39,814 nucleotides of DNA from Rhizobium sp. Q54 (GTDB lineage: Bacteria; Pseudomonadota; Alphaproteobacteria; SMXQ01): the NCBI GenBank assembly GCA_945861615.1, contig CAMAVH010000010.1:1-39814 (forward strand). Reading direction: 5' to 3'. Below the pieces are notes generated by a model. The model was not told where the DNA came from and made no database searches. It worked only from the letters and a program-made list of their open reading frames with translations. Positions 2,855 through 30,323 of this stretch are shown piece after piece; positions within the stretch are counted from its first letter, which is position 1, and every line of letters begins with the position of its first letter. Both the position numbers and the translations under genes were made by a program.

Positions 2855-4111
2855 TTGTTCGTCTCGTTCTTTCCCCGGCCCAAGCTGCTGTTCTGGTCGA
2901 TGCTGCTGTGGACCGCTGCCGCCGTCGCCTTCTGGTATGTCCTCGGCCGGGACCTCGGCGCCTTTGTCGGCCTGCCGCCCGCCGCCGAGGACGCCGAGCC
3001 CATTGTCGGCGCGTCGATCTTCTGGTCGAAGCCGTTCCTCTGGTTCTACGTCTATTACGCCGTCTGCGTCGGGCTGTTCGCCGCCGCCTGGCGCGCGATC
3101 GCGCCGCACCCCTGGGCCAATTGGTCGATTCTCGGCACCGCGCTGATCCTCTTCACCAGCTACTTCCAGGTGCAGGTCAGCGTCGCCATCAACAGCTGGT
3201 ACGGGCCGTTCTACAACCTGATCCAGGCGGCGCTGTCGAAATCGGCCCCGGTCGAGCTCGGCCAGTTCTACGGCGAGTTGGTGAGCTTCGCGGGCATCGC
3301 CTTCATCGCCGTGACCGTCGGCGTCTTCACGCGCTTCTTCGTCAGCCATTGGATTTTCCGCTGGCGCAGCGCGATGAACAATTACTACATGAGCTATTGG
3401 GACCGGCTGCGCGTCATCGAAGGCGCCTCGCAGCGCGTGCAGGAAGACACCATGCGTTTCTCCACCACTATGGAGGGACTCGGCATCAATCTGGTCGAGG
3501 CGGTCCTCACCTTGATCGCCTTCCTGCCGGTGCTGCTGGCGCTCTCGGTCAACATCACCGAGCTGCCCTTCATCGGCGAAGTCCCCTACGCGCTCGTCGT
3601 CGTCGCCATTCTTTGGTCGATCTTCGGCACGACCTTTCTCGCCCTGGTCGGCATCAAGCTGCCGGGCTTGGAGTTCCGCAACCAGCGCGTCGAGGCGGCC
3701 TACCGCAAGGAGCTGGTCTATGGCGAAGACGATGCGGCGCGCGCCCAGCCGCCGACGGCGCGGCAATTGTTCGCCAACGTGCGGACCAACTATTTCCGGC
3801 TCTATTTCCACTACATGTATTTCAACGTCGCGCGCATCTTCTACCTGCAGACCGACACGATCTTCCCTTATGTCGTGCTGGCGCCGACTATCGTCGCCGG
3901 CAAGATCACGCTCGGCGCGATGAACCAGATCCTCAACGCCTTCTTGCAGGTTCGCACGTCGTTCCAATATCTCGTCACGTCCTGGACGACGATCGTCGAG
4001 CTCTTGTCGATCTACAAACGCCTGCGCGCTTTCGAGGCCGCGATCGAAGGCGAGCCGCTGCCCGAGATCGACCGGCTTTACATGGAACGTAAGGAAGAGG
4101 CGCTGAGCTAA
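2855..4111 (+). CDS. sbmA: SbmA/BacA-family peptide transporter
   Basis: Inner-membrane, proton-driven importer of peptides (microcins, proline-rich antimicrobial peptides). In rhizobia the family member BacA is needed for bacteroid survival. The 418-residue product matches the usual length of about 400. It has several hydrophobic membrane spans and the family blocks [40 protein letters not shown] and [17 protein letters not shown]. No ATP-binding domain is attached, as expected for this family. The frame could begin at GTG 2819, but the family N-terminus (SFFPRPK) starts right after TTG at 2855, which has AAAGGA (2841-2846) 8 bases upstream, so TTG 2855 is preferred. It ends 9 bases before the convergent glycosyltransferase. 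Confidence 0.88.
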
Positions 4112-29319: not shown

Positions 29320-29538
29320 TTAGTGAACGCTGACCGGCGCGAGATCGTGCTGGCGGATCGCCGCCATGGCGATATCGCGATCGGCGAGAATGGCGATTTC
29401 GGTGCCGTCGGCCGCATAGACGCCGAAGACGCTGGCGCCTTCGACCTTCACCGGCTTCACATAAGCCACTTCCTGCAGCCCGAGCGACGCCAGATCGTGG
29501 TCCGACATGATCGGCAGAGTCTGTTCAGCGGTATTCAT
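29320..29538 (-). CDS. DUF1150 family protein
   Basis: A 72-residue protein of the alphaproteobacterial DUF1150 family, function unknown. The core DLASLGLQEVAYVKPVKVEG and FGVYAADGTEIAILADRDIA are recognisable. ATG 29538 is fixed by an excellent AAGGAGG 6-8 bases upstream; the open frame continues further but without support. It lies 149 bases downstream of hsp20 on the same strand. Repeated pairing of DUF1150 with small heat-shock genes in this class suggests a stress-related role (inference). Confidence 0.9.
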   Translation of the reverse strand: MNTAEQTLPIMSDHDLASLGLQEVAYVKPVKVEGASVFGVYAADGTEIAILADRDIAMAAIRQHDLAPVSVH

Positions 29539-30167: not shown

Positions 30168-30286
30168 CGGCGACTCCTCAGCATGAGCGAGATCACAGGG
30201 ACCGCAAGATCCTGGGCGGTGGCCGGCCCGCGCGCCTTATGCGCCGCGGTTCGGCCTTGCGGCCTGACGGCCCGTTCTGGCGCCGT
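30168..30286 (-). promoter_or_regulatory. ROSE-like RNA thermometer in the hsp20 leader
   Basis: The last leader hairpin (30191-30174, minus) is CUCGCUCA-UGC-UGAGGAG. It pairs the Shine-Dalgarno UGAGGAG with CUC(G)CUCA, leaving a single bulged G. This is the ROSE hallmark U(U/C)GCU motif (here UCGCU) opposite the ribosome-binding site. The Shine-Dalgarno ends 6 bases before the ATG. Upstream the roughly 120-base leader can form other hairpins, including GGCC-GCAA-GGCC (30266-30255). Heat would melt the weak last stem and free the site. Structure was judged by eye. Confidence 0.72.
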
Positions 30287-30292
30287 CGCTTC

Positions 30293-30323
30293 CATATGTA
30301 GGAAACGGCTCCGCCATAACAAG
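30293..30323 (-). promoter_or_regulatory. RpoH (sigma-32)-type promoter of hsp20
   Basis: Minus strand CTTG (30323-30320), 17 bases, CCTACATATG (30302-30293). This fits the alphaproteobacterial heat-shock consensus CTTG-N17/18-CYTATNTNNG with one mismatch. Start predicted near 30286, giving the roughly 120-base ROSE-type leader. Upstream to the acyltransferase stop (30324-30486) I see no gene. Confidence 0.65.

Follow-up and report, generated by a model that had tools for sequence, protein, structure and literature searches.

The recognised signature of ROSE elements is a U(U/C)GCU motif that blocks the Shine-Dalgarno (SD) sequence by imperfect pairing in the 3' hairpin. Dual control of small heat shock protein (sHsp) genes by RpoH and ROSE is already established. 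In Pseudomonas putida, for instance, ibpA has an RpoH-dependent promoter and a two-hairpin ROSE element, of which hairpin II melts and hairpin I does not (PMC3669281). Hairpin variants of P. putida and P. aeruginosa lacking G39 are repressed (PMC3669281). Predictions for alpha- and gammaproteobacteria amount to more than 40 ROSE-type elements (PMC4166951), and such heat-shock genes have been noted to be under multiple control in rhizobia (PMC3989490).

The locus described here is in itself expected biology. It lies in the draft genome (2.98 Mb, 191 contigs) of an uncultured alphaproteobacterium and was analysed within a window, i.e., the whole 39.8-kb stretch of DNA under study. Based on what can be read from the sequence, namely the promoter, the hairpins with their conservation, covariation and positional anchoring, and the presence of rpoH, hsp20 is very probably under the dual control of an RpoH (sigma-32) heat-shock promoter and, downstream of it, a ROSE-type RNA thermometer (Table 1). 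Upon heat, more active RpoH would increase the transcription of hsp20 and DUF1150. In the transcript, the hairpin from 30196 to 30170 would pair the SD with CUC[G]CUC, and the bulged G would weaken this helix enough for warming to open it and let the 30S subunit in. Hairpin I, a stable hairpin at the 5' end that also has a bulged G, would assist from the predicted transcription start site (TSS).

Table 1 Features of the hsp20 locus, listed along the direction of transcription (positions in the window)
Feature	Position	Strand	Support or remark
-35 element CTTG of the RpoH-type promoter	30320-30323	minus	kept in sister L083; ortholog-trained matrix
-10 element CCTACATATG, 17-nt spacer from CTTG	30293-30302	minus	identical in sister L083; matrix
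Hairpin I, GACGGC[G]CC-AGAAC-GG-GCCGUC, bulged G30281, starting at predicted +1	30266-30287	minus	z -3.34; sister; ortholog covariation
GC-rich intervening segment, ~69 nt, predicted long hairpin(s)	30197-30265	minus	inner stem GGCCG..CGGCC kept in sister
Hairpin with ROSE-type core masking the SD, bulged G30188 and bulged U30192	30170-30196	minus	RNAfold; identical in sister L083; best window match of model R1
Anti-SD CUC[G]CUC with U(U/C)GCU ROSE motif	30185-30191	minus	same core in E. coli ibpA
SD GAGGAG, 6 nt from ATG	30174-30179	minus	
hsp20, IbpA-like small heat shock protein, 159 aa	29688-30167	minus	PF00011, E=6e-16
DUF1150 gene, likely second gene of the hsp20 operon	29320-29538	minus	PF06620

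Gene context and promoter of hsp20

The hsp20 product is a Hsp20/alpha-crystallin protein. Its nearest NCBIfam equivalog is IbpA, with a score under the equivalog cut-off. In a collection of species genomes, the best ortholog matches were found in Rhodospirillales-type alphaproteobacteria, and a search of viral contigs returned distant hsp20 relatives only (39-40% identity). The hsp20 protein of the sister species (L083) is 94% identical to that of the window. In 77 of the 86 loci that were searched, tblastn gave a DUF1150 match, located at the listed positions downstream of hsp20; the two genes hence probably form one operon.

The initial annotation had placed a heat-shock promoter of the form CTTG-N17 about 120 bases from the ATG. 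An exact match is indeed present on the minus strand (30323-30293), and the 3' end of its -10 element lies 125 nt upstream of the hsp20 ATG (30167). The -35 element (CTTGTT) and the -10 element (retained stretch TTTCCTACATATGGA) are kept in the sister species, in which the upstream DNA and most of the spacer have diverged. A promoter matrix was trained on about 80 leaders of Rhodospirillales-type orthologs, with the whole family of the window held out. It converged on CTTGAM, a spacer of mostly 17-18 nt, and CCCANATNN. Scores of at least 5 were reached in 76 of the 80 training leaders and of at least 12 in 82 of the 86 ortholog leaders. The window promoter scores 16.3 with the held-out matrix, a value reached at 2 of the ~79,600 positions on both strands of the window. 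Moreover, the genome encodes one RpoH sigma factor (TIGR02392, 377 bits; curated cut-off, 323). The sequence features expected of an RpoH promoter were thus found, i.e., a -35 CTTG, a CC-rich -10, a spacing of 16-18 nt, and a cognate RpoH. The CTTG, the spacing of 17-18 nt and the C-C-N-A-N-A-T -10 are common to alphaproteobacterial sigma-32 promoters and to the window, without notable difference.

It could be argued that the CTTG/CCTACAT match is fortuitous and that another promoter, upstream or within the leader, drives hsp20. The spacer is 17 nt long instead of the 18 nt preferred by most orthologs, and the -35 element reads CTTGTT instead of CTTGAA/AC. This explanation is nonetheless very unlikely: both elements are kept in the sister species, hairpin I is located at the same fixed distance (12 nt) from this promoter as in other leaders, and the region between 30150 and 30500 yielded neither a sigma-70-like promoter nor a terminator-like site. 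From position and conservation, we infer the TSS of the promoter and its dependence on RpoH, a dependence which the initial annotation had also proposed and to which the sister species, most orthologs and the rpoH gene of the genome lend support.

With the same matrix, position 3943 (plus strand) of the window, CTTGCAGGTTCGCACGTCGTTCCAATATC, scores 21.2, above the hsp20 promoter itself. A search by exact pattern gave no CIRCE in the window. Elsewhere in the genome, a near-consensus CIRCE (GCACTC-N9-GAGTGC) is located upstream of groES (L121), and HrcA-type control therefore likely exists in the organism besides RpoH.

The Shine-Dalgarno hairpin

RNAfold predicts the last hairpin of the leader, from 30196 to 30170, as GUGA-U-CUC-G-CUCA-UGC-UGAG-GAG-UCGC, with the SD wholly paired and UCGCU (30190-30186, minus strand) within the anti-SD. 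The masking of the ribosome-binding site with UCGCU by this hairpin, as described in the initial annotation, is therefore retained. The single bulged G described with it is not, as two bulges are predicted. Folding energy by itself is no evidence for the element, since 140 nt of the leader do not fold unusually well (z = -0.23) and the SD hairpin, with a predicted stability of -10.2 kcal/mol, reaches a z-score of -1.42.

The motif [CT]TCGCT[CT]-N2-9-GAGGAG occurs once in the window, considering both strands. In the 834 kb of loci that were fetched, every further match is in an hsp20 leader of a family member. A looser form was matched 11 times in the whole 3.0-Mb genome versus 5 times in the reversed control. 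The motif alone is thus not unique, and position and conservation carry the case. A model of the SD hairpin (R1, family held out) returned the hsp20 SD hairpin as the top match in the window (15.3 bits, E 0.14). R1 is too short a model to single it out genome-wide.

The sister species matches the window at every one of the 32 nt that end at the ATG; the middle of its leader has diverged and one block is lost. Among the ortholog leaders, which are mutually related so that counts are not independent, an anti-SD of the form Y-Y-[G]-C-U could be placed in register with the SD in 80 of 86. Outer-stem complementarity, calculated on the flanks outside the core, was 5.83 versus 3.42 (sd 0.27) when partners were swapped, and none of 2000 swaps reached the observed value. 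When the SD hairpin alone was first aligned, based on MAFFT, covariation was not significant, in contrast to this register-aware swapping. Little compensatory change was seen in the core SD pairs, as expected of pairs in which the SD is one partner. Another hallmark of ROSE elements, a structure conserved through compensatory changes, was found on the orthologs. The validated thermometer of E. coli ibpA reads UCUCGCUGAUUUCAGGAG and has the same core as the window (UCUCGCU..AGGAG).

The SD hairpin might also be a static attenuator, lowering hsp20 translation at all temperatures, in which case heat control would be wholly transcriptional via RpoH. The predicted stability of the hairpin would suit such a role, and predicted SD accessibility hardly shifts between 25 and 45 °C. 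With ViennaRNA, the unpaired probability of the SD was 0.010 at 25 °C, 0.019 at 37 °C and 0.026 at 42 °C. As the validated E. coli ibpA element, used as a control, barely moves either (0.075 at 25 °C, 0.079 at 37 °C and 0.092 at 42 °C), nearest-neighbour folding at different temperatures has little power. The SD hairpin of the window is more stable than that of E. coli ibpA in the same folding model. A static lock, however, would not need a bulge: 80 of the 86 leaders retain the bulged G, and its deletion in silico stabilises the hairpin by about 4 kcal/mol. Furthermore, this core has been proven to act as a thermometer in E. coli and Pseudomonas (PMC3669281). Static attenuation is therefore considered unlikely, and a temperature-responsive SD hairpin is the preferred reading.

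Hairpin I and the architecture of the leader

Hairpin I has a counterpart in the sister species, GACGGU[G]CCG..CGGGCCGUC, and follows a pattern common to the orthologs, N4-10-Y[G]CC-loop-GG-R-N4-10. Such an upstream bulged-G hairpin is present in 75 of the 86 leaders, compared to about 6 in shuffled leaders, and 12 leaders contain two of them (0.2 expected). Its stem co-varies in the orthologs, with frequent G-U pairs. After realignment on two hairpins, 42 double-change cells were counted over both hairpins versus 11.9 in shuffles (0 of 500 reached this number), although the alignment is model-fitted and leans toward structure. This covarying 5' hairpin, together with the bulged-G anti-SD hairpin and its co-varying outer stem, supports the ROSE-type reading with which the analysis began.

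Inverted repeats in a heat-shock leader could also be DNA operator sites of a heat-shock repressor rather than RNA structures. Hairpin I is located at the predicted +1, a true CIRCE takes its place in a paralog leader of two family members, and ROSE was itself taken for a DNA element at first (PMC4166951). The pattern of variation suits RNA and not a DNA palindrome: the letters of the stem vary while pairing is kept, and G-U is common (pair 6-52: UG 35, CG 26, UA 2). Moreover, the SD forms one arm of the 3' hairpin. Operator sites are the least probable of the explanations considered, and we regard them as highly improbable. Both hairpins are thus treated as RNA structures.

The distance of hairpin I from the promoter, measured from the end of the 9-base -10 element to the bulged G, is 12 nt in the window and in the sister species. 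It amounts to 11-16 nt in 51 of the 82 leaders with a clear promoter. In leaders of at least 90 nt, the bulged G is found at 11-16 nt in 19 of 41, compared to ~12% for random placement (binomial p ~5e-8, a value which ignores relatedness and refers to an interval picked after seeing the data). In hsp20-paralog leaders of the same family, which lay outside the definition of the rule, 9 of 12 have the bulged G at 11-13 nt. From the distances in leaders and paralogs, it follows that hairpin I keeps to the promoter and the SD hairpin to the start codon. The two are normally adjacent in short leaders, as they are in Pseudomonas, and ~69 nt apart in the genus of the window.

A two-hairpin covariance model (R2), built without the family of the window, returned the hsp20 leader as the best match in the whole genomes of four family members (G003, G004, G009 and G010). 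In the window, it matched the SD core only (10.1 bits), and no full match was obtained in the genome of the window or its sister. R2 misses the full leader of the window because the intervening segment separates hairpin I from the SD hairpin.

The most likely role of hairpin I is to aid folding or to protect the 5' end. A protective role was suggested earlier for hairpin I in Pseudomonas (PMC3669281). More tentatively, and with a probability that we place slightly below even, alphaproteobacterial sHsp leaders may consist of two separately anchored modules, a bulged-G hairpin at the RpoH TSS and a bulged-G thermometer hairpin at the start codon, with a middle free to grow, as it would have done in the genus of the window. 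In that case, the 5' module would function at the 5' end of the mRNA, e.g., as a stability cap, and would not be part of the temperature sensor. If true, the novelty would lie in the rule on position and in its occurrence in two classes of hsp20 paralogs.

Several observations were made on the hsp20 paralogs. The second hsp20 of the same genome (L002, G000:C76) and its counterpart in the sister species (L084) carry a bulged G in their SD hairpin, AUAUC[G]CU..AGGAGGGUAUAU, and have a promoter of the form CTTG-N17-CCTAAAT. Both hsp20 genes of the genome hence appear to be under RpoH and ROSE-like control. The hsp20 frame of L002 is reported with two in-frame TAA codons inside the matched stretch. 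Subthreshold matches to a SorX-type small RNA are located near this paralog (L002, 2259-2332, minus strand, 35.4 bits; L084, 1079-1152, plus strand, 33.4 bits; threshold 46.6). In two family members, the leader of an hsp20 paralog (L096 in G004 and L097 in G003) combines a perfect CIRCE, TTAGCACTC-N9-GAGTGCTAA, an RpoH-type promoter and a UUGCU/GGAGGA SD hairpin on one gene. The CIRCE occupies the region of hairpin I in other leaders, and triple heat control by HrcA, RpoH and ROSE is possible for this gene.

Comparison with known ROSE elements

A search with the Rfam ROSE models by Infernal had been proposed in the initial annotation as a check, with the absence of a hit as a refutation. Taken literally, this outcome was obtained, as the window gave no ROSE match at the gathering threshold or up to E=10. 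The weak matches to CRISPR-DR64, mir-8791 and Twister-sister (E 3-7) were attributed to chance. ROSE_3 (RF02523) gave nothing over its cut-off and nothing above chance in the whole genome, with controls scoring equally. None of the fetched ortholog leaders scanned against Rfam ROSE passed the gathering threshold, and the missing match therefore reflects model coverage. Subthreshold ROSE_3 matches were confined to three leaders (L004, L023 and L061; 30.9-35.1 bits versus a threshold of 43). The scanned leaders of the Rhodospirillales type thus escape the Rfam ROSE thresholds despite conserved, co-varying hairpins. As a consequence, the group is overlooked in annotation, and it would be feasible to build a better model.

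The short ROSE-like thermometer of Pseudomonas ibpA (ROSE_3) likewise comprises an RpoH promoter, a stable GC-rich hairpin I first, and then an SD hairpin with U(U/C)GCU and a bulged G before an sHsp gene. The three orthologs with subthreshold matches align over the whole length of this model, unlike the window. The leader of Pseudomonas measures 61-62 nt, whereas that of the window measures ~120 nt, and its hairpin I and SD hairpin are set apart by ~69 nt of additional hairpin sequence. Since the 5' hairpin is so tightly anchored to the promoter, the role of the upstream ROSE hairpins, so far unexplained, can be tested directly.

With respect to classical ROSE elements, described with three to four hairpins in rhizobia, Caulobacter and E. 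coli ibpA, the window differs in lacking an Rfam ROSE-family match and in its intervening hairpins, which are genus-specific in sequence. The locus appears to work like ROSE, in that every sequence-level feature tested was found, but the Rfam threshold was not reached. The window has an sHsp leader, an imperfect U(U/C)GCU anti-SD in the 3'-most hairpin and a number of hairpins within the 2-4 of ROSE elements, with stable ones upstream. As in the window, classical ROSE is a multi-hairpin leader in which the SD and U(U/C)GCU are in the 3' hairpin only.
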